A DNA stretch of 64,000 nt from assembly GCA_001800315.1 (NCBI GenBank), contig MGVE01000018.1, forward strand, positions 1 to 64,000, written 5' to 3'. Below are positions 11,481 through 22,167 of the stretch, in pieces; positions within the stretch are counted from its first letter, which is position 1, and each line of letters opens with the position of its first letter. A program made the translations under genes and the position numbers. The stretch comes from Elusimicrobia bacterium RIFOXYA2_FULL_47_53 (GTDB lineage: Bacteria; Elusimicrobiota; Endomicrobiia; Endomicrobiales; XYA2-FULL-47-53). The notes below the pieces were generated by a model. It was not told where the DNA came from. It searched no databases and saw only the letters and a list, made by a program, of their open reading frames with translations.

Positions 11481-11752
11481 TTGTAGATTTGTTCTTGCTT
11501 CCCTGTCCCGTTATGAACATATAAATCCTATCTTGACGAAACCATTCTAAAGAGTTAACATCTTTTTTAACAACACTTCGGGGGCTGCAAATAATGTTCA
11601 ACTCATCAACTCGCTGATATTTTTACCATGCCGCGTCCCCGCGGGATGGGTTTTTCTGTTTGAGTGATAAAACATGATTGTCAGGAAGGAAAATGAAAAA
11701 CAATGAATAAATACTACGCGCATAGTGTTTCAGGCAAAACGCCGGAGGGAAT

Positions 11753-12196
11753 ATGAGAAAGGTCAAGATCTCTGTTGATGAGCTGTCAACAGCTTTTGAT
11801 ATGGTGTCAGCGGAAACAGTCTGTTTTTTAGATGTGGAAAGTGCTGAGATTGAGACAGTGAATGAATATACAATGAGCCGGGAAGAAATAGACAAGATTT
11901 ATAAGGCAATAGACGAAAACCCCGACAGATTCATACAAATACCTGAAAATGACCCGCACGAAAGGTACGAGGAAATGACGGAATTCGCGGACGGAGTAAC
12001 GGATTTCAAGCTTAGGGATAAACTCTATGCAGCGCTGGAATCCAAAGGGCCTTTCAGGAAATTTAAGGATGTATTACTGAACTATCCGGACGAACGCAAG
12101 GAATGGTTTGCCTGCGTTGACGAAAAAATACAGCAAAGAGTCCTGTATTGGCTAAAAGAAAATGAAATTGAATTAACTGATAAAGGACAAATATGA
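11753..12196 (+). CDS. UPF0158-like protein
   Basis: 147 residues, acidic, no signal peptide or TM segment. Motifs such as FIQIPENDPHERYEEMTEFA, KLYAALESKGPFRKFKDVL and ERKEWFACVDE match the UPF0158 family, small cytosolic bacterial proteins of unknown function. It is often found as an orphan in variable regions. The GGAGGG before the ATG at 11753 supports the start. First gene of the accessory island. Confidence 0.75.
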   Translation: MRKVKISVDELSTAFDMVSAETVCFLDVESAEIETVNEYTMSREEIDKIYKAIDENPDRFIQIPENDPHERYEEMTEFADGVTDFKLRDKLYAALESKGPFRKFKDVLLNYPDERKEWFACVDEKIQQRVLYWLKENEIELTDKGQI

Positions 12197-12406
12197 TTGT
12201 ACTTGATTGCATGTTCCAAAAAAGGTTTGAAAATCGGCCGAGTTAATACTAAAGAAACCGTATGCCTGTCTATGAGTGGGTGCGGAAGTTTCACAGTTTT
12301 GCATGAGATACGAAGTAGCTTTCCATTCGCGGCAGTGTTGCGCGGCACAATTACAAACAAGTAAAAACATGATTCTCCAGTTGACTCAAAATAATGGAGG
12401 GAAATA

Positions 12407-12766
12407 ATGCAAAGTAATTGTTTTGCTGTAATTTTCTGGTTAGTTGCGAGCGTCTCAAGCATTTTCTGGGCGGTATATGGTTGGTATTATGAGAAACATT
12501 TAAACCAGAAAAAAACCGACAGGGTATATCCCGAATGTCTGTTTTGTTTGGGCGCGGCTATTTCGGAATTCCTTGGTTCAATGGGCGGCTGGCTTGTTTT
12601 ATGGATATTCTCAAAAAGATATATGGCAGGCGCGTTCGGGAATGTTGATATAGCTCTAATAGTATTGGCGATTATTGGGATATCCGGATATTCTTACAGG
12701 TTGATTGAAGTTTTCAGCAATCTTACAAAAAAGGTGAAGGATAAATACACCACTACGGACTTATAG
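12407..12766 (+). CDS. Small hypothetical membrane protein
   Basis: 119 residues with three hydrophobic stretches: about 6-24 (VIFWLVASVSSIFWAVYGW), 42-67 and 83-101. A basic, charged C-terminus (KKVKDKYTTTDL) follows. I do not recognise the family. A good ribosome site (GGAGG, 12394-12398) precedes the ATG. The 210 bases before it contain only a TTGACTCAA MITE-end-like motif near 12381 and no convincing gene. Confidence 0.6.
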   Translation: MQSNCFAVIFWLVASVSSIFWAVYGWYYEKHLNQKKTDRVYPECLFCLGAAISEFLGSMGGWLVLWIFSKRYMAGAFGNVDIALIVLAIIGISGYSYRLIEVFSNLTKKVKDKYTTTDL

Positions 12767-12793
12767 CCGCAGCGGTTGATTAGGTGGTGGTTT

Positions 12794-13261
12794 GTGAAAA
12801 ACATTTCTATGTCGTTTTTCGGGAAAACACTGCGCATGTACTGGCTGCGCGGGGAGTATTGCGCGCTGGATAGAGATATCGCGGTTATGTTTGAGGTTGA
12901 CAAAAAAGCGCTTGTCGCGTTGCTAAAGAGAAAGAAATACTCCGATACAAACTGTTTCACTCTGAATATTAACGAGTATAACCGCGTCATGCAAGCCACA
13001 TTAAAGCGTTTAAAGAAGACAGACACCGTTTATGCTCTTAATGAACTGGGTATTATCAGGTTGTCGTTTGATATCAGAAAGAGCAAGACGGCCGCCGAAG
13101 TGTCCGTTAAAGTTATCAGGGCAACGGCTGAAGTGATCAATCTGATGGCATATGTCAAAAAAGCAGATGATTTCAATGTCCCTCTTGGCCCGCAATATGA
13201 TAAGGTCCGTAAAGAAATAGAAAGGGCGCCCGATATCGTAAAACAGCTGTTTGGGCTATAA
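12794..13261 (+). CDS. Hypothetical protein with weak ORF6N-like N-terminus
   Basis: 155 residues from the GTG at 12794 (weak GGTGG upstream); the ATG at 12809 is an alternative start. The N-terminal part (LRGEYCALDRDIAVMFEV, KALVALLKRKKY, FTLNINEYN) resembles the phage-type ORF6N DNA-binding domain in spacing, but the match is weak. The rest is helical with no recognised motif. It could be a phage-derived regulator or an unrelated orphan. Confidence 0.45.
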   Translation: MKNISMSFFGKTLRMYWLRGEYCALDRDIAVMFEVDKKALVALLKRKKYSDTNCFTLNINEYNRVMQATLKRLKKTDTVYALNELGIIRLSFDIRKSKTAAEVSVKVIRATAEVINLMAYVKKADDFNVPLGPQYDKVRKEIERAPDIVKQLFGL

Positions 13262-13295
13262 GCCGGCCGAAGAAAGCAAACATAAGTGGATGATT

Positions 13296-13318
13296 ATTTC
13301 AAATCTCAGATTTGAAAT
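13296..13318. repeat. Perfect palindrome, 11-bp arms
   Basis: ATTTCAAATCT, one central C, then AGATTTGAAAT. It lies 21 bases before the four-helix-bundle gene. A second, partly diverged copy lies inside that gene at about 13619-13646, where it reads in frame as [11 protein letters not shown]. Confidence 0.8.
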
Positions 13319-13338
13319 ATACAACGATGGGGGGGATT

Positions 13339-13845
13339 ATGAAATATGAGAAGTTTGAAGATGTTCCGGTCTGGAAAGATGGCGTGAACCTTACGGTAGA
13401 GGTATTTAAATTAACCGAAGATAAGAGATTTCGTTTTAAAGGGGACATAGCCAACCAGATACAGAGGGCGGCGTTATCAGTCCCAAATAATATAGCCGAG
13501 GGTTTTGAGCGCGGGACAACACAGGAATTGATAACATTTTTGTACTATGCCCGCGGATCGGCCGGTGAAGTTCGTTCTATCCTGTCCGTTGTTGAGCGGA
13601 TGCCGGTGTTTGATGATCTCAAATCTCAGATTTCGGATTTGAAATTAAAGGCGGAGTCGGTTTCCCGCCAAATTAGAGGATGGACAAATTCTCTCCAGAA
13701 CACGGGGATAGAAGGTCAGAGATATCTGAATGAAAAATCCAAAAAAATATATGAACGGGAGAAAGACAAAGAAGATTTCCTGAAAACATTAAGGCAATAT
13801 GCAAATTCTAAAAATGTAAGAAAAAACAGCATGGAAACCCCATGA
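13339..13845 (+). CDS. Four-helix-bundle protein (23S IVS-type family)
   Basis: 168 residues from the ATG at 13339, which follows a G-rich ribosome site. [48 protein letters not shown] and [16 protein letters not shown] are hallmark motifs of the four-helix-bundle family first seen in 23S rRNA intervening sequences. Function unknown; it is common in candidate phyla. A copy of the nearby palindrome forms the stretch near residues 94-103 in frame. The family usually ends near 120 aa, so the basic tail after about residue 125 is extra. Its stop overlaps the start of a cas1 remnant. Confidence 0.8.
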
Positions 13846-14042
13846 AAAAATATCTGAATACGCTTTTCATTACAACTCAGGGCGCCTATCTCAAAAAGGA
13901 AGGCGAGACTATTGTTGTAAGCGTTGACAAAGAATAAAAGCTATGGGTTCCTGTTCATACGGTGGGTGTATTCGGGAATGATTTAGGGAAGGTTTCTAAA
14001 CTCGCACTGGGTAAGAGTAATGAATATGGAGATGAAAAATGA
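13842..14042 (+). pseudogene. 5' remnant of a cas1 gene (I-C-like), interrupted by a stop
   Basis: Reads [31 protein letters not shown], then TAA (13935-13937), then in the same frame KLWVPVHTVGVFGND and loses similarity. The two pieces match the N-terminus of Cas1 from type I-C and related systems (KxLNTLYVTTxGAYLxxxGExVVV, then VPxHTxxGxVxFG). Only about 45 of some 340 residues remain. The frame ends at a TGA (14040-14042) that overlaps the cas12b ATG. This is not the Cas1 of the present locus, which is a Cas4-Cas1 fusion. It looks like the scar of an earlier CRISPR system. Confidence 0.75.
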
Positions 14043-17000
14043 ATCGTATTTATCAGGGCAGGGTGACGAAGGTTGAGGTGCCGGACGGTAAAGATGAAAA
14101 GGGCAACATAAAATGGAAAAAACTTGAGAACTGGTCAGATATCCTTTGGCAGCATCACATGCTTTTCCAGGATGCGGTGAATTATTACACGCTGGCACTT
14201 GCTGCTATATCAGGATCTGCAGTAGGTAGCGATGAAAAATCAATTATACTTCGCGAATGGGCTGTGCAGGTACAAAACATATGGGAAAAAGCAAAAAAGA
14301 AAGCAACGGTGTTTGAAGGGCCACAAAAAAGATTAACTTCAATACTTGGACTGGAGCAAAATGCATCGTTTGATATAGCTGCAAAGCATATATTGCGTAC
14401 GAGTGAAGCAAAACCGGAACAACGAGCATCTGCGCTTATTCGTCTATTGGAAGAGATAGATAAGAAAAACCATAATGTGGTCTGCGGTGAAAGGCTTCCT
14501 TTTTTCTGTCCGCGAAACATCCAAAGCAAGAGATCACCCACCAGCAAGGCAGTATCGTCAGTTCAAGAGCAAAAAAGGCAAGAAGAGGTAAGAAGATTTC
14601 ATAATATGCAGCCTGAAGAAGTAGTAAAAAATGCAGTTACACTTGATATTAGTTTGTTTAAATCTTCTCCCAAAATAGTTTTTTTAGAAGACCCAAAGAA
14701 GGCGCGGGCGGAATTACTTAAACAATTTGATAATGCATGCAAAAAGCATAAAGAGTTAGTTGGGATTAAAAAGGCATTTACGGAATCAATTGATAAGCAC
14801 GGAAGTAGTCTTAAAGTCCCCGCGCCAGGTAGTAAGCCCAGTGGGCTATATCCTTCCGCTATAGTTTTTAAGTATTTTCCTGTAGACATAACCAAAACTG
14901 TATTTTTGAAAGCAACAGAAAAATTGGCCATGGGTAAAGATAGGGAAGTTACAAATGATCCTATAGCCGATGCGCGCGTAAATGATAAGCCGCATTTTGA
15001 TTATTTTACCAACATTGCATTAATTCGCGAAAAAGAAAAAAATCGCGCCGCATGGTTTGAGTTTGATTTAGCAGCTTTTATTGAGGCCATAATGTCGCCT
15101 CATAGGTTTTATCAAGACACGCAAAAGCGTAAAGAGGCGGCAAGGAAGTTAGAAGAAAAGATAAAAGCCATTGAAGGAAAAGGCGGACAATTTAAAGAAT
15201 CGGATAGTGAAGATGATGATGTGGATAGTCTGCCTGGGTTTGAGGGTGATACCCGTATTGATTTGCTGAGAAAACTGGTTACAGATACACTTGGATGGCT
15301 TGGAGAGTCAGAGACACCAGATAACAACGAAGGTAAAAAGACGGAGTATTCAATAAGCGAAAGAACCCTGCGCATATTTCCCGATATACAGAAACAGTGG
15401 TCAGAGCTCGCTGAAAAAGGAGAGACGACAGAAGGAAAATTACTGGAAGTGCTTAAACACGAGCAAACAGAGCATCAGAGTGATTTCGGCAGTGCAACGC
15501 TTTATCAGCACTTGGCCAAGCCGGAGTTTCATCCGATTTGGCTTAAAAGTGGAACCGAAGAATGGCATGCAGAAAACCCGCTTAAGGCATGGCTTAACTA
15601 CAAGGAACTACAATATGAGCTGACTGATAAAAAGCGTCCTATACATTTTACTCCAGCTCATCCGGTATATTCCCCCAGATATTTTGATTTTCCCAAAAAG
15701 TCAGAAACAGAAGAAAAAGAAGTCTCTAAAAATACACATTCACTAACAACGAGCCTTGCATCAGAACATATTAAAAACTCATTACAGTTTACAGCAGGAT
15801 TGATACGCAAAACCAATGTTGGCAAAAAAGCTATAAAAGCGCGATTCTCATACTCTGCACCTCGCCTTCGGCGTGATTGTTTGCGTTCTGAAAACAACGA
15901 GAATCTATACAAGGCTCCATGGTTGCAACCAATGATGCGGGCATTGGGTATTGATGAAGAGAAAGCAGACAGACAAAACTTTGCCAATACCCGTATTACT
16001 CTAATGGCTAAGGGATTGGATGACATACAACTTGGCTTTCCCGTGGAAGCGAATTCGCAAGAATTGCAAAAAGAGGTGTCTAATGGTATTAGCTGGAAAG
16101 GGCAGTTTAATTGGGGTGGAATTGCTTCTCTTTCTGCTTTGCGTTGGCCTCATGAAAAAAAGCCAAAGAATCCGCCAGAACAACCATGGTGGGGCATAGA
16201 CAGCTTTTCATGCCTTGCGGTTGATTTGGGGCAGCGTTATGCCGGAGCATTTGCCAGACTGGATGTGTCAACTATTGAAAAGAAGGGGAAATCACGCTTC
16301 ATCGGTGAGGCATGCGACAAGAAGTGGTATGCGAAGGTGTCGCGTATGGGGCTTTTACGCCTACCCGGTGAAGATGTAAAGGTGTGGCGCGATGCATCAA
16401 AAATAGATAAAGAAAATGGCTTTGCGTTTCGTAAAGAACTTTTTGGCGAAAAAGGCAGATCTGCCACACCTTTGGAAGCAGAAGAAACAGCAGAGCTTAT
16501 TAAGCTATTCGGTGCAAATGAAAAAGATGTAATGCCTGATAACTGGAGTAAAGAACTCTCGTTTCCGGAACAGAACGACAAGCTTTTAATAGTAGCGCGG
16601 CGTGCGCAGGCAGCAGTATCAAGGCTTCATCGTTGGGCGTGGTTTTTTGATGAAGCTAAGCGTTCCGATGACGCTATCAGGGAGATTTTAGAAAGCGATG
16701 ATACGGATTTGAAACAAAAAGTAAATAAGAATGAAATTGAGAAAGTTAAGGAAACTATAATAAGCCTATTGAAAGTAAAACAGGAGCTATTGCCTACTTT
16801 GTTAACCAGGCTTGCAAACCGAGTGTTGCCTCTTCGTGGTAGAAGCTGGGAGTGGAAAAAACATCACCAAAAAAACGATGGTTTTATTCTGGATCAGACA
16901 GGCAAAGCTATGCCCAATGTATTAATTCGTGGCCAACGCGGGCTTTCTATGGATAGAATTGAGCAAATAACGGAATTGCGCAAGCGTTTTCAAGCGCTTA

Positions 17001-18133
17001 ACCAATCGTTACGCAGGCAGATAGGCAAAAAAGCGCCTGCCAAACGGGATGATTCAATACCCGACTGCTGCCCGGATTTGCTTGAAAAACTTGATCATAT
17101 GAAGGAACAACGGGTAAACCAGACCGCACATATGATTTTGGCCGAAGCGCTTGGGTTGAAGCTTGCAGAACCGCCAAAGGATAAGAAAGAGCTTAATGAA
17201 ACCTGCGATATGCACGGGGCATATGCAAAGGTTGATAATCCGGTAAGTTTCATTGTGATAGAAGATCTTTCAAGATATCGTTCTTCGCAGGGGCGTTCTC
17301 CAAGAGAAAATAGCCGTCTGATGAAATGGTGTCATCGTGCGGTTAGGGACAAGCTAAAGGAGATGTGTGAAGTATTTTTCCCTTTGTGCGAAAGAAGAAA
17401 AGCAGGTAGCGCCTGGGTATCGTTGCCGCCGCTACTTGAAACGCCAGCGGCTTACTCATCGCGCTTTTGTTCGCGCAGCGGTGTTGCCGGCTTCCGTGCA
17501 GTAGAAGTGATTCCGGGATTTGAATTAAAGTACCCTTGGTCTTGGTTAAAAGACAAAAAAGATAAAGCCGGAAATCTCGCCAAAGAAGCTTTAAATATTC
17601 GTACTGTAAGTGAACAGCTTAAAGCGTTCAATCAGGATAAGCCTGAAAAGCCACGCACATTATTAGTGCCTATTGCAGGTGGCCCTATTTTTGTGCCTAT
17701 TTCAGAGGTTGGGTTGTCATCTTTCGGTTTGAAACCGCAGGTAGTGCAGGCAGATATTAATGCGGCTATTAATTTAGGATTAAGAGCAATCTCTGATCCG
17801 CGGATATGGGAAATACATCCCCGCTTGAGAACCGAAAAACGAGACGGACGGCTTTTTGCGCGAGAAAAGAGAAAATACGGAGAAGAGAAAGTGGAAGTAC
17901 AGCCTTCAAAGAACGAAAAAGCAAAGAAAGTTAAAGATGATCGCAAGCCTAATTACTTTGCTGATTTTTCCGGTAAAGTTGATTGGGGTTTTGGAAATAT
18001 AAAAAATGAAAGTGGTCTCACTTTGGTTTCAGGCAAGGCTTTGTGGTGGACTATCAATCAATTACAGTGGGAAAGATGCTTTGACATTAATAAAAGGCAC
18101 ATTGAAGATTGGTCTAATAAACAAAAACAATGA
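14039..18133 (+). CDS. cas12b: Type V-B CRISPR effector Cas12b (C2c1), large variant
   Basis: RNA-guided DNA endonuclease of 1364 residues; characterised Cas12b proteins are about 1100-1200. RuvC motifs are seen as LAVDLGQRYAGAFARLD (D729), FIVIEDLSRYRSS (E1075) and VVQADINAAINLGLRA (D1239). Flanking signatures match known Cas12b: RENSRLMKWCHRAVRDKL after RuvC-II, and AAYSSRFCSRSGVAGFRA with GGPIFVPISE before RuvC-III. There is no HNH domain or Cas12a-type repeat. The N-terminus (MNRIYQGRVTKVEV) fits the wedge/OBD start. A strongly acidic insertion lies near residues 390-405 (SDSEDDDVDS). GGAG at 14028-14031 gives 7-base spacing to the ATG. Its stop overlaps the cas4-cas1 start as ATGA, so the two are coupled. 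AT-richer than the flanking core genes, consistent with transfer. All three catalytic residues are present, so it should be active. Confidence 0.95.
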   Translation: MNRIYQGRVTKVEVPDGKDEKGNIKWKKLENWSDILWQHHMLFQDAVNYYTLALAAISGSAVGSDEKSIILREWAVQVQNIWEKAKKKATVFEGPQKRLTSILGLEQNASFDIAAKHILRTSEAKPEQRASALIRLLEEIDKKNHNVVCGERLPFFCPRNIQSKRSPTSKAVSSVQEQKRQEEVRRFHNMQPEEVVKNAVTLDISLFKSSPKIVFLEDPKKARAELLKQFDNACKKHKELVGIKKAFTESIDKHGSSLKVPAPGSKPSGLYPSAIVFKYFPVDITKTVFLKATEKLAMGKDREVTNDPIADARVNDKPHFDYFTNIALIREKEKNRAAWFEFDLAAFIEAIMSPHRFYQDTQKRKEAARKLEEKIKAIEGKGGQFKESDSEDDDVDSLPGFEGDTRIDLLRKLVTDTLGWLGESETPDNNEGKKTEYSISERTLRIFPDIQKQWSELAEKGETTEGKLLEVLKHEQTEHQSDFGSATLYQHLAKPEFHPIWLKSGTEEWHAENPLKAWLNYKELQYELTDKKRPIHFTPAHPVYSPRYFDFPKKSETEEKEVSKNTHSLTTSLASEHIKNSLQFTAGLIRKTNVGKKAIKARFSYSAPRLRRDCLRSENNENLYKAPWLQPMMRALGIDEEKADRQNFANTRITLMAKGLDDIQLGFPVEANSQELQKEVSNGISWKGQFNWGGIASLSALRWPHEKKPKNPPEQPWWGIDSFSCLAVDLGQRYAGAFARLDVSTIEKKGKSRFIGEACDKKWYAKVSRMGLLRLPGEDVKVWRDASKIDKENGFAFRKELFGEKGRSATPLEAEETAELIKLFGANEKDVMPDNWSKELSFPEQNDKLLIVARRAQAAVSRLHRWAWFFDEAKRSDDAIREILESDDTDLKQKVNKNEIEKVKETIISLLKVKQELLPTLLTRLANRVLPLRGRSWEWKKHHQKNDGFILDQTGKAMPNVLIRGQRGLSMDRIEQITELRKRFQALNQSLRRQIGKKAPAKRDDSIPDCCPDLLEKLDHMKEQRVNQTAHMILAEALGLKLAEPPKDKKELNETCDMHGAYAKVDNPVSFIVIEDLSRYRSSQGRSPRENSRLMKWCHRAVRDKLKEMCEVFFPLCERRKAGSAWVSLPPLLETPAAYSSRFCSRSGVAGFRAVEVIPGFELKYPWSWLKDKKDKAGNLAKEALNIRTVSEQLKAFNQDKPEKPRTLLVPIAGGPIFVPISEVGLSSFGLKPQVVQADINAAINLGLRAISDPRIWEIHPRLRTEKRDGRLFAREKRKYGEEKVEVQPSKNEKAKKVKDDRKPNYFADFSGKVDWGFGNIKNESGLTLVSGKALWWTINQLQWERCFDINKRHIEDWSNKQKQ

Positions 18134-19827
18134 TGGACTCTCTTGTCCGCACAGAAAATTCAATGGCACCTCAGCCCATGATGGGTGTCCGCAATCTGCA
18201 CAACTACATCTACTGCCCGCGGTTGTTCTATTATCAGTGGGTGGAGAATATCTTCCAGGAAAACGCGGATACTGTGGAAGGTTCTTACATTCACCGCAAT
18301 GTTGACCGTCCATCCCGTCTTGATGACCTTAATGAAATTGATCTCCCGGAAGGTTCGGCAATAAAATCCCTTCGCCTGGATAGCGAAACTCTCGGTATTG
18401 TGGGTGTGATTGATATTGTTGAGGGCGGACCCGAAGGGGCCGTTCTTATTGATTACAAGAAAGGTTCATCTCGTCGTGATGAGAAAGGCGAGAGGATGGC
18501 GAAGGAGCCTGACGCAATGCAGGTGGTAGCGCAGGCCATGCTTTTGGCGGAACATGGAATTGCTGTTAAAGAGGCATTTATATACTATGCCGCAGACAAG
18601 CGGCGCGTCCCGGTAGATATATCGAGCGGCTGTGTTGATGTTTGTCGTGAGAAAATTGCCGAAGCAAAGGCAATAGCTGTCTGTGGTAAGTGCCCGCCGC
18701 CCTTGATAAATGATGCGAGGTGTCTGTATTGTTCGGTATATCCAATATGCTTACCCGCAGAGTCGGAATATTGGAAAAACCACGGAGATGAGGCTTGTGA
18801 AGTCAAGAGAGCTCCACGGCCGGATAATGACGACGGAGAAGTTCTCATTGTGCAGACGCCGGGAGCTCAAATTGGGCTGAAAGGCGGGGAAGTCGTTGTG
18901 TCCGTTAAGGGCGAAGAGATACGCAAACTTCCCGCGCATCAGTTGAGAGCAGTTTACCTATATGGTGCTGTTCAGGTAACTGCGCATGCTTCGCATAGCT
19001 TTTTGGAGCAAGGAACTGATGTCTCGTTCTTTGCGCCCTCCGGTCGTTTCTTAGGGTTATTGAGAGGCCTGCCTACATCGGGAACAGACGCACGCCGAGG
19101 TCAGTATCGTCTTTTTGATCAACCGGAGATATGTCTTAAAATAGCTCGTGAAATGATTCGTGCGAAGATTCACAATCAACGGACAATGCTTATGCGTAAT
19201 GGTGAACCGGACAAAAATGTGCTTGATCAAATGCTGAAGTTGCGAGATAAAACGGTGGAAGCTGAAGAGCTTACTAAATTACTCGGTCTTGAAGGAATGG
19301 CGGCGGCGCTATATTTTGAGAACTTCAAGTGCATGTTGAAACCGAAGGATGATTATTCTTTTGACTTTTCGTCTCGCAATAGGCGGCCTCCGAAAGATCC
19401 CGTAAACGCACTTCTTTCCATGGGCTATAGCATGTTGTGTAAGGAATTGACTGGAGTATGTCATACGGCCGGACTTGACCCATTTATAGGAGTTATGCAC
19501 CGCCCTCATTACGGTCGTCCGGCATTAGCGTTAGATATTATGGAAGAATTTCGTCCTTTAATCGCAGATAGCGTTGCCATAAGTCTTATTAATCGCGGCG
19601 AAGTAGTCAAGAGCGATTTTCTCGTCAGCGCGGCAGGTGTATTCCTGAATGAGCAGGGACGCAGAGCTTTCTGGGAGGCCTATAGCCGCAGGATGGATAC
19701 CGAGATCATACATCCACAATTTGAATATAAAATGCCTTACCGGAGAATGCTGGAGGTTCAAGCTCGCCAAATGTGGCGGTTTGTAAGAGGCGAGGCGGTT
19801 GGATACACAGGTTTTACAACGAGGTAG
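18130..19827 (+). CDS. cas4-cas1: Cas4-Cas1 fusion, CRISPR adaptation protein
   Basis: 565 residues. The Cas4 part (1 to about 215) has the N-terminal iron-sulfur cysteine C29 (YCPRLFYY), RecB nuclease residues D95 (VIDIV) and D108-x-K110 (IDYKKG), and the C-terminal cysteine cluster RCLYCSVYPIC. The Cas1 part (about 235-565) has integrase residues E388 (GLEGMAA), H457 (GVMHRPHYGRP) and D469/E472 (LALDIMEEF). Cas4 selects PAM-bearing prespacers; Cas1 with Cas2 inserts them. This fusion is known from types V-B and I-G; with Cas12b beside it the V-B assignment holds. ATGA overlap with cas12b. The partner Cas2 is broken. Confidence 0.95.
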   Translation: MMDSLVRTENSMAPQPMMGVRNLHNYIYCPRLFYYQWVENIFQENADTVEGSYIHRNVDRPSRLDDLNEIDLPEGSAIKSLRLDSETLGIVGVIDIVEGGPEGAVLIDYKKGSSRRDEKGERMAKEPDAMQVVAQAMLLAEHGIAVKEAFIYYAADKRRVPVDISSGCVDVCREKIAEAKAIAVCGKCPPPLINDARCLYCSVYPICLPAESEYWKNHGDEACEVKRAPRPDNDDGEVLIVQTPGAQIGLKGGEVVVSVKGEEIRKLPAHQLRAVYLYGAVQVTAHASHSFLEQGTDVSFFAPSGRFLGLLRGLPTSGTDARRGQYRLFDQPEICLKIAREMIRAKIHNQRTMLMRNGEPDKNVLDQMLKLRDKTVEAEELTKLLGLEGMAAALYFENFKCMLKPKDDYSFDFSSRNRRPPKDPVNALLSMGYSMLCKELTGVCHTAGLDPFIGVMHRPHYGRPALALDIMEEFRPLIADSVAISLINRGEVVKSDFLVSAAGVFLNEQGRRAFWEAYSRRMDTEIIHPQFEYKMPYRRMLEVQARQMWRFVRGEAVGYTGFTTR

Positions 19828-19828
19828 T

Positions 19829-20119
19829 ATGAGCAGAACCAGGTTTCTTGTTTGTTATGATATCTCTAATCCTAAGCGATTAAGGCGTATTGCAAAAACA
19901 CTGGAGGGGTACGGGAGTCGCCTACAATTTTCTGTATTTGAATGTCCGCTGGATAAACAAAGGCTTGCAGAAGTGAAAGCGAGGCTTGCAGATATTTTGA
20001 GTCATGATTAGGATCAGGTATTGTTTGTAGAACTCGGGAAAGAGGCATCGGAATCCGGTTTAATTATTGAAGCAATGGGCCTGCCATATGTCGGAAGAAC
20101 ACGCTTGACAATCGTTTAA
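19829..20119 (+). pseudogene. cas2: cas2 interrupted by an in-frame TAG
   Basis: Starts one base after cas4-cas1 (MSRTRFLVCYDISNPKRLRRIAK, with the ferredoxin-fold beta1 and aspartate D10). Residues 1-60 end in ILSHD, then TAG (20009-20011). The same frame continues DQVLFVELGKEASESG...PYVGRTRLTIV to a TAA at 20117-20119. The full reading frame of 96 codons is the normal Cas2 length, so a single base change (for example GAG or CAG to TAG) broke it. The truncated protein would lack the last strands that bind Cas1. TAG ends intact genes here (typA, cas4-cas1), so recoding is unlikely. Adaptation is probably lost or needs another Cas2. Confidence 0.88.
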
Positions 20120-20133
20120 AATTTGAGTAGCAT
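20105..20133 (+). promoter_or_regulatory. Promoter for the tracrRNA
   Basis: TTGACA (20105-20110), a 17-base spacer and TAGCAT (20128-20133). The -35 overlaps the last codons of the broken cas2 frame. Transcription would start near 20140, just before the anti-repeat region. Confidence 0.6.
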
Positions 20134-20137
20134 CTAA

Positions 20138-20250
20138 AATGCCTACGGGCAACGAACACAATCCTTCCGCCATTGGGATTGCAGGCTCTTTGGAATTACA
20201 TGCGGAGCGAGCGCGATAATGAAGCATTTGCTTATCATAAGCGCTCGGTT
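20138..20250 (+). ncRNA. tracrRNA of the type V-B system
   Basis: Three segments pair with the CRISPR repeat in order. CCGCC (20167-20171) pairs with the repeat's 3' GGCGG. CAGGCT (20182-20187) pairs with AGCTTG, including one wobble. GGAATTACATGCGGAG (20192-20207) pairs with CTCCGCAGTGATTCC with one G-U and one bulged A. The first segment lies in the loop of a stem CAATCC/GGATTG (20159-20164 with 20176-20181). This is the plan of the Alicyclobacillus Cas12b tracrRNA, whose CAACGGG/CCCGTTG stem encloses its first anti-repeat. A stem CGAGCGC/GCGCTCG (20208-20214 with 20241-20247) follows and may form the 3' end. Strand inferred from the promoter and from this order. Confidence 0.72.
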
Positions 20251-20382
20251 TACACAATTAGCTGCAATTGCAGAGAATTATTGTGGTGAGAGTACTATGA
20301 CAAAATTTGTGGTTTTGGTTTTGAGGTTATGCTCGCAAAGTGCGGAAAAGCACCTTATAAACCGTGTGTTTTATAAAGCGCT
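20251..20382 (+). other. Probable CRISPR leader
   Basis: 132 bases between the tracrRNA hairpin and the first repeat, with no coding frame. It contains the palindrome CTGCAATTGCAG (20262-20273), a small hairpin GTGC-GGAAAA-GCAC (about 20340-20353) and the inverted pair TTATAAA/TTTATAA directly before repeat 1. No clear -35/-10 pair is visible for the array itself. Confidence 0.45.
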
Positions 20383-21055
20383 ATTAACTCCGCAGTGATT
20401 CCTATCAGCTTGAGGCGGAACAAAAGCATTTTCCCCTACTCCAGAACAAGAGGCATTAACTCCGCAGTGATTCCTATCAGCTTGAGGCGGTTGAGTATGT
20501 CAATAATAGTGAATTGCCCCCTGATATTAACTCCGCAGTGATTCCTATCAGCTTGAGGCGGTTTTACGCCTTCCGCGTCCTTACCGTCATCTTTGATTAA
20601 CTCCGCAGTGATTCCTATCAGCTTGAGGCGGTTATCTTATCTACTAAAAGAAACTTTAATTAACTTATTAACTCCGCAGTGATTCCTATCAGCTTGAGGC
20701 GGAGCGAAGCTCAAGCTAAAAGACTATATGCCATTTATTAACTCCGCAGTGATTCCTATCAGCTTGAGGCGGCGAATGCGGAAAATTCAAGTTTAATCCC
20801 GACAAATTAACTCCGCAGTGATTCCTATCAGCTTGAGGCGGTCTATATCAATCCTCTCTAATATCTCTTTATCGTGATTAACTCCGCAGTGATTCCTATC
20901 AGCTTGAGGCGGTTCGCCCAATAAAGTTATTTCCAATGTTGATGCTTGATTAACTCCGCAGTGATTCCTATCAGCTTGAGGCGGATCGTTGAGCAGTTCA
21001 CAAAGGTCAGGCCATGAGCATTAACTCCGCAGTGATTCCTATCAGCTTGAGGCGG
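20383..21055 (+). CRISPR. CRISPR array, 10 repeats of 36 nt, 9 spacers
   Basis: The repeat begins ATTAACTCCGCAGTG and ends ATCAGCTTGAGGCGG; all ten copies look identical. Repeat starts: 20383, 20455, 20526, 20596, 20667, 20737, 20806, 20877, 20949, 21020. Spacers are 33-36 nt. The repeat can fold through CCGC/GCGG and TGAT/ATCA. No spacer matches any other part of the window by eye. There is no degenerate end repeat, so the age polarity cannot be read from the repeats. Orientation (+) follows the tracrRNA pairing. Confidence 0.98.
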
Positions 21056-21087
21056 TTATTGTGCAGTGAGGCATAAGCCCCGACTAT

Positions 21088-21114
21088 GTTCCCCGCGCGA
21101 GCGGGTATGAACCG
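21088..21114. repeat. Solitary type I-E-like CRISPR repeat
   Basis: A 27-base stretch GTTCCCCGCGCG / AGCGGGTATGAACCG. It matches the common type I-E repeat form (GTTCCCCGCGCG, AGCGGGGATGAACCG) except for one base. It lies 32 bases after the V-B array, with no second copy and no I-E cas genes in the window. It could be a relic of a former array. Its CCCGC-GCGA-GCGGG hairpin might instead end the array transcript, though the T-run lies about 5 bases beyond the repeat. Confidence 0.7.
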
Positions 21115-21136
21115 CTCTATTTTTTGTAAATAATAC

Positions 21137-21165
21137 TTGGCAAACATTGTTTATTATTATATATT
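21137..21165 (+). promoter_or_regulatory. Promoter of the zinc-ribbon / nucleotidyltransferase genes
   Basis: TTGGCA (21137-21142), a 17-base spacer and TATATT (21160-21165), in an AT-rich tract 20 bases before the start codon. Confidence 0.6.
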
Positions 21166-21184
21166 TATACTGAGGAGAACAAAA

Positions 21185-21334
21185 ATGGTAGAAGTAGCGA
21201 TCCGTGAAGGGCAGCTGAAATGCTTAAGATGCGGGCATAGGTGGAATCCGCGCACGAACGATGTTAGGATTTGTCCGTGCTGCAAATCGCCATATTGGGA
21301 TAAACCGGCTAAGAATAAAAAGAGGATAAAGTAA
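21185..21334 (+). CDS. Small zinc-ribbon protein
   Basis: 49 residues from the ATG at 21185, after GAGGAGA. CLRCGHRW (C13, C16) and CPCCKSPYW (C31, C34) form a four-cysteine zinc ribbon with rubredoxin-like knuckles, and the tail is lysine-rich. It is the first of three closely packed genes (1-base gap, then a 23-base overlap). Such ribbons often occur with small nucleotidyltransferase genes; the role is unknown. Confidence 0.75.
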   Translation: MVEVAIREGQLKCLRCGHRWNPRTNDVRICPCCKSPYWDKPAKNKKRIK

Positions 21335-21335
21335 A

Positions 21336-21548
21336 ATGAAGATCCTGAAAACCTCTGTTCATAAAGGCAAAATCTTTGTTTCGGGCAAAATGGTTCATGC
21401 GGAAAAAGATATCCTGAACAAGGAGGATTCTTTTGAAAGCGCTCTTAATACCCTTATGGTGATCCGTGAAGAAAGGGAAAACCTTTTCAATGACAAGACC
21501 GTCAAATATTTGGAGAAAACAATTCATGGTAAAAGAAAGGCCGGCTGA
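21336..21548 (+). CDS. Hypothetical 70-aa protein, possible antitoxin-like partner
   Basis: 70 residues (starts MKILKTSVHKGKIFVSGKMV), basic, with a helix at EDSFESALNTLMVIREEREN. I do not recognise the family. It starts one base after the zinc-ribbon stop and overlaps the nucleotidyltransferase gene by 23 bases. The pairing with a nucleotidyltransferase hints at a two-gene module, but this is inference from layout only. Confidence 0.55.
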   Translation: MKILKTSVHKGKIFVSGKMVHAEKDILNKEDSFESALNTLMVIREERENLFNDKTVKYLEKTIHGKRKAG

Positions 21549-22014
21549 GAAAGACTACCAGGAATTTATTGAGTGCCTAAACAAGCACAAGGTTGATTAT
21601 ATGATCCTTGGGGCTTATGCCGTGATAAGACATACCAGGATCGCCAGGGAAACAAAGGATATTGATTTCTGGATTAAAGACAATATTGAGAACGCTAAAA
21701 AGACGGCCGCCGCGATTAAGGAGTTCTCGGGGATTACCGTAGATCCTCGTGAGCTGATAAAAAAAGACGAGATTTACTATATAGGCAGAGTGCCGAGACG
21801 CATTGATATTTTTTGCAACCAGGCAGACTTGAATTATGACAACGCGCGCAAAAATGCCGTCAAAGATAAGTTTTTGGACTTTGAAGTATCATTCATTTCA
21901 GCCCAGGATCTGTTGAAGCTTAAGAGATTCTATAAGTCCGAAGAAAATGAGGACACTTACGGTAAGGATATTAAAAGACTTGAGAATGTTTTGGAGCAGG
22001 AGCGCGAAAGATAA
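21526..22014 (+). CDS. Nucleotidyltransferase-fold protein (DUF6036/AbiEii-like)
   Basis: 162 residues from the ATG at 21526. YMILGAYAVIRHTRIARETKDIDFWI (residues about 24-49) gives the G-x-A ... T-x-DID core of minimal nucleotidyltransferases; a further aspartate lies in RRIDIFC. A helical C-terminus has DLLKLKRFYKSEE. This fold occurs in AbiEii and MNT toxins and in uncharacterised housekeeping proteins. Its place beside a CRISPR locus, overlapping a small basic gene, fits a toxin-antitoxin or defence module, but this is not shown. An in-frame TTG/ATG further upstream has no ribosome site. Confidence 0.7.
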   Translation: MVKERPAEKDYQEFIECLNKHKVDYMILGAYAVIRHTRIARETKDIDFWIKDNIENAKKTAAAIKEFSGITVDPRELIKKDEIYYIGRVPRRIDIFCNQADLNYDNARKNAVKDKFLDFEVSFISAQDLLKLKRFYKSEENEDTYGKDIKRLENVLEQERER

Positions 22015-22030
22015 ATACTATTCTCCTTTG

Positions 22031-22070
22031 CAATAAACCTCAGCTCAGCCAGCTGAGCTGAGGTTTATTG
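22031..22070. terminator. Perfect 18-bp hairpin after the nucleotidyltransferase gene
   Basis: Arms CAATAAACCTCAGCTCAG (22031-22048) and CTGAGCTGAGGTTTATTG (22053-22070) pair without mismatch around a CCAG loop. Likely a terminator working in either direction, since the ends are AT-rich; there is no long T-run. Confidence 0.65.
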
Positions 22071-22137
22071 GTGGGTGGCCGGGTTGTGTACGCAGGGTCA
22101 GGGTAGTGCAAAAAGCAGAATTATTTTGGTATAATGA

Positions 22138-22167
22138 AACCGCGGCGGAGTGGCGCCGCGGTTTTTT
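22138..22167 (+). terminator. Intrinsic terminator in front of pfp
   Basis: AACCGCGGCG and CGCCGCGGTT (10 perfect pairs, 6-base loop) followed by T6. A TATAAT at 22130-22135 lies directly before it, with only a weak -35. It either closes read-through from the island or acts as a 5' attenuator for the phosphofructokinase gene. Confidence 0.75.

Follow-up and report, generated by a model that had tools for sequence, protein, structure and literature searches.

A type V-B CRISPR-Cas block lies at positions 14039 to 21055 of the window, by which we mean the whole stretch of 64,000 nucleotides that was analyzed. Its parts run on the plus strand in the order cas12b, cas4-cas1, cas2, tracrRNA, and CRISPR array, and the locus is chromosomal, in a genome of 2.4 Mb in 20 contigs. 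The cas12b gene (14039 to 18133) encodes a protein of 1364 aa and is followed by a cas4-cas1 fusion (18130 to 19827; 565 aa), which scored 623.6 bits with the Cas4g/Cas1g model NF049935, against a cut-off of 560, and also matched PF01867 and PF01930. The cas2 frame (19829 to 20119) carries an in-frame TAG at codon 61 of 96. Next come a site that resembles a promoter by consensus match only (TTGACA-17 nt-TAGCAT; 20105 to 20133), a tracrRNA (about 20140 to 20250), and an array (20383 to 21055) in which ten identical 36-nt repeats (ATTAACTCCGCAGTGATTCCTATCAGCTTGAGGCGG) separate nine spacers of 33 to 36 nt, the same counts that the first-pass annotation of this DNA had given. That annotation had called the locus complete; its coordinates, cas12b, cas4-cas1, tracrRNA, and 10-repeat array all bear the description out, but the cas2 frame that it counted in has a premature stop that it overlooked. 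Judged from its sequence, the locus is a genuine type V-B CRISPR-Cas12b system of an uncultured Elusimicrobiota bacterium, with the effector, Cas4-Cas1, the dual-RNA guide, and the array intact and cas2 broken. A neighboring relic outside the V-B system (13842 to 13980, plus strand) ends just before cas12b: it is what remains of the N-terminal part of a decayed type I-C cas1 (TIGR03640, 2e-10) and is interrupted by a TAA.

The assignment of the effector to type V-B, already made in the first-pass annotation, was confirmed by both profile and structure comparisons. NF033949, the curated NCBI model of Cas12b, matched the protein at 1085.9 bits (cut-off, 150) over profile positions 1 to 1252 of 1253, and among the PADLOC models that matched, the best was Cas12b. 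The RuvC residues D729, E1075, and D1239, correctly named at first reading, are intact, and 20 of 20 proteins in the effector's lineage carry the same three. The protein was modeled with AlphaFold2 as two overlapping parts, residues 1 to 735 (mean pLDDT, 82.0) and 580 to 1364 (mean pLDDT, 80.5), and both predicted halves ranked Cas12b structures first. The top match of the N-terminal half was Cas12b 5WTI (Z, 18.1; 417 residues; 4.7 Å), and those of the C-terminal half were ChCas12b 9KLN (Z, 23.5) and AacC2c1 5U34 (Z, 23.3). A profile of the lineage aligned with that of the short Cas12b lineage over the whole length (E, 7.8e-86), with about 20% identity between the effector and short-lineage proteins. 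Cas12b3, an inactivated variant that is likewise type V-B by name (PMC12669027), was rejected as an identity: its RuvC-I and RuvC-II substitutions are absent here, and the D/E/D triad is intact.

Relatives were sought in two genome scans, of which a single-sequence scan of genome contigs returned 0 loci and an alignment-based scan of representative genomes returned 54. A tree of 49 proteins, all Cas12b-like and including BvCas12b, contained three deep Cas12b lineages; because the tree was built by a quick method, had no outgroup from other Cas12 proteins, and drew a program warning of long internal branches, we leave the branching order of the three unsettled. The short lineage (about 1100 aa) holds BvCas12b, a second large lineage (about 1240 to 1560 aa) is mostly from Planctomycetota, and the effector's own lineage (22 rows in the tree; SH-aLRT, 100) is mostly from Verrucomicrobiota, not from Bacilli, at odds with an earlier statement that such loci come mostly from Bacilli and candidate phyla. 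All three lineages are present in Elusimicrobiota, a distribution that fits horizontal spread. Relatives in the effector's lineage (loci L022 to L047; Verrucomicrobiota, Nitrospirota, Elusimicrobiota, and others) are 26 to 61% identical to it in their best segments, share its tracrRNA, have the same gene order where this was read, and mostly encode longer Cas12b proteins (up to 1725 aa). Three of these loci (L022, L028, and L031) are the same Cas12b locus in MAGs named Deltaproteobacteria and Nitrospirae, either by recent transfer or by mis-binning. Outside this set, the annotation of cas12b on a plasmid of Alicyclobacillus dauci (L076:5548-8912; NZ_CP104065.1) gives two overlapping reading frames, such as a frameshift or a split of the gene would produce.

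The effector had been described as an unusually large Cas12b, a view that does not survive comparison with its relatives. Complete members of its lineage measure 1358 to 1725 aa, so that the 1364-aa protein is among the shortest, and the NCBI model NF033949 itself has 1253 positions. A published panel of 15 Cas12b proteins spans 1064 to 1529 aa, including the active NiCas12b (1440 aa) and DtCas12b (1529 aa), both with a TTN PAM (PMC11423069), and the cryo-EM structure of the 1496-aa ChCas12b has been solved (PDB 9KLN). These three proteins, large like the effector here, would on account of their length belong to the second large lineage (Planctomycetota and others, with repeats ending in GACAC); ChCas12b has only distant sequence similarity to our effector (78.6 bits). 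Set against these sequences, 1364 aa is an ordinary size for its branch, and large Cas12b proteins are common rather than exceptional. A mis-assembled insertion in cas12b was ruled out because relatives 46 to 60% identical to it share its length. The earlier description of a divergent branch of V-B holds insofar as the branch stands well apart from short Cas12b in both the tree and sequence identity, but length is not what distinguishes it.

The guide RNA follows the V-B architecture of a long repeat/anti-repeat duplex plus a short pseudoknot of 5 to 7 bp (PMC11246509). In the tracrRNA, hairpin 1 (20140 to 20151) precedes stem 2 (20159 to 20164 with 20176 to 20181), whose loop contains the short anti-repeat CCGCC (20167 to 20171), the exact complement of the GGCGG at the 3' end of the repeat. 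The long anti-repeat (20184 to 20208) and a third stem (20208 to 20214 with 20241 to 20247) follow. The best duplex of the long anti-repeat with its own repeat has an energy of −32.4 kcal/mol and ranks 1 of 19 loci, in a test of each anti-repeat against its own and 18 other regions that was clear for only 10 of the 19 loci. In nearly all loci the tracrRNA lies 190 to 260 nt upstream of the first repeat (374 nt in L045). In stem 2, 99.1% of cells are paired and all six pairs have changed on both sides; the covariation score was reached by none of 500 shuffles and was far lower for slid versions. Stem 2 is conserved through compensatory change. A search of the whole 64-kb window with Rfam at gathering thresholds gave 0 matches. 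As minor observations, the tracrRNA core occurs twice, about 100 nt apart, in L045 (15345 to 15493), and a second anti-repeat-like stretch is present in L036 and L041.

The short pseudoknot differs from that of classic Cas12b throughout the lineage. A repeat 3' end in CAC was found in 13 of 15 Cas12b systems and is common but not defining (PMC11423069); it is absent here, where the repeats finish in GGCGG like those of the rest of the lineage (GGCGG or GACGG, not CAC, in 21 of 21 arrays examined). Repeats end in TGGCAC in the short lineage and mostly in GACAC in the second large lineage (GGCAC in its Elusimicrobiota member L068). The loop of stem 2 is the exact complement of the last five bases of the repeat in 21 of 21 loci, including two with a compensatory change (L024 and L040), whose repeats end in GACGG and whose loops read CCGTC. 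This compensated swap across the lineage supports, from natural variation, the short repeat/anti-repeat duplex in Cas12b guides. A recoded handle would prevent the exchange of guides with classic Cas12b, and the swapped handle marks enzymes that likely use their guides independently of the characterized ones, a property that may be useful for combining several Cas12 enzymes.

Classic short Cas12b systems (AacC2c1, 5U30; BthCas12b, 5WTI; and BvCas12b of Bacillus sp. V3-13) share with this locus the effector fold and RuvC triad, the adaptation genes (a Cas4-Cas1 fusion plus cas2), 36-nt repeats, and a tracrRNA with a long duplex and short pseudoknot. They differ in the pseudoknot sequence (TGGCAC in the repeat and GTGCC in the tracrRNA, versus GGCGG and CCGCC here) and in length: they have about 250 fewer residues, and the recognition lobe accounts for most of the difference. 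In the profile alignment with the short lineage, the main inserts of our effector are residues 169 to 213, 219 to 252, 267 to 283, 383 to 397, and 804 to 849. The first three add about 100 residues to the first helical (recognition) region and were mostly predicted as confident helices by AlphaFold2, and the last sits after RuvC-I. The added recognition-lobe structure proposed in the first-pass annotation is partly borne out by residues 169 to 283, but the acidic run that it included is a 15-residue insert predicted as a low-confidence loop (383 to 397; block means of about 65). In the model this run is a linker, not a domain, and most lineage members have at the same place a loop that varies in length and is acidic or of mixed charge. 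In the longest proteins (L032, L034, L035, and L036; 1668 to 1725 aa), the extra length is distributed over several inserts, none of those listed exceeding 51 residues.

How far these differences set the effector apart can be read in several ways. The low identity to the short lineage and a crRNA handle unlike the classic one might suggest a protein outside Cas12b, that is, a new type V subtype. We regard this as highly improbable, considering that the NCBIfam and PADLOC models of Cas12b cover the full length, that both halves have Cas12b structures as top match, and that gene order, the Cas4-Cas1 fusion, and guide architecture are all shared with type V-B. A more modest reading stays within Cas12b and gives the lineage a distinct activity, for example another PAM or gated cleavage, through its recognition-lobe additions and acidic loop. 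The confident helices at 169 to 283 and the acidic, variable character of the loop in most of the lineage are in its favor; however, the loop is of low confidence and has no conserved motif, and Cas12b proteins of 1440 and 1529 aa use an ordinary TTN PAM (PMC11423069), which makes a distinct activity doubtful. Within type V-B, we tentatively propose that the lineage is a coherent sub-lineage, not formally named, that combines the recoded GGCGG/CCGCC handle with an enlarged recognition lobe and acidic loop.

The nine spacers were compared with several sequence sets. The whole array had only chance matches in phage and plasmid records, and 20-nt seeds of six spacers (1, 2, 3, 5, 8, and 9) found no protospacer in viral contigs, where the one seed match lost agreement after 20 of 34 nt. 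Arrays of two relatives had no usable match in phages, and the array compared with relatives of the host genome gave chance matches only, the best of which (L078) spans a spacer-repeat boundary. With 0 protospacers among the spacers searched, no PAM could be derived from them. Viral contigs, scanned twice for Cas12b, gave no usable locus.

Adaptation is probably impaired. The cas2 frame starts with the ATG at 19829, meets the TAG at 20009 to 20011, and is then open to the TAA at 20117 to 20119. In the six relatives that were read, Cas2 is intact (95 to 98 aa) and has Glu, Asp, or His at this position (GAG, GAT, or another sense codon); by this comparison, the defect is a lesion of this copy and not a difference in gene content. 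No second Cas2 was found in the host genome, in which the stopped gene is the only Cas2 match. Reassignment of TAG was ruled out because TAG terminates 8 of the 54 genes checked in this organism. With the only cas2 of the genome stopped early, the cell has probably lost the ability to add new spacers, unless an assembly error created the stop.

It is quite possible that the V-B locus is fully working, adaptation included, and that the TAG either is a minority allele or arose in sequencing or assembly. TAG and GAG are one base apart, the reading frame continues undamaged for 36 codons past the stop and terminates at the same point as in the relatives, and the ten identical repeats would also fit recent acquisition. 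The assembly itself nevertheless shows a clear stop, and on balance we favor a real lesion. The same stop, taken together with the decayed type I-C cas1 piece, could instead mean that the whole locus is decaying and that the effector will follow cas2, repeating the fate of a type I-C system that once stood there. This is unlikely in view of the single lesion within 7 kb and of the intact cas12b, cas4-cas1, tracrRNA pairing, and ten repeats.

Taken as a system with a real cas2 lesion, the locus is probably unable to acquire spacers, yet it may defend. The array transcript would pair with the tracrRNA through the long repeat/anti-repeat duplex and the short GGCGG/CCGCC pseudoknot, and by analogy with the family, RNase III would trim this duplex. 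The guide-loaded Cas12b would then find DNA next to a 5' T-rich PAM, and its single RuvC site would make staggered double-strand cuts. The nine stored spacers would still be used, and new ones would no longer be added. We know of no member of this exact Cas12b lineage with known activity. We consider it very likely that the locus is a chromosomal type V-B system of a widespread large-Cas12b lineage that would cut DNA beside a T-rich PAM, using its spacers and probably adding none.

The surroundings of the locus have a distinct base composition. From about 11750 to 22150, G+C is 0.41 to 0.48 and mostly 0.41 to 0.44, compared with 0.49 to 0.50 in the flanks. Together with the type I-C relic, this stretch fits an acquired segment in which one CRISPR system may have replaced another. 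For an empty-site comparison, the genes that flank the locus were sought in related genomes, where they are on different contigs, so that no empty site emerged. The low-G+C stretch also holds a gene for a 23S rRNA intervening-sequence protein and an ORF6N-like gene. An ORF of 182 aa (21466 to 22014, plus strand) had no Pfam match but resembles a small nucleotidyltransferase and may be related to defense or to toxin-antitoxin systems. A gene for a TypA-like GTPase, about 12 kb away from cas12b here (208 to 2076), adjoins cas12b in another genome (G110; L012:6704-8539), possibly by chance.
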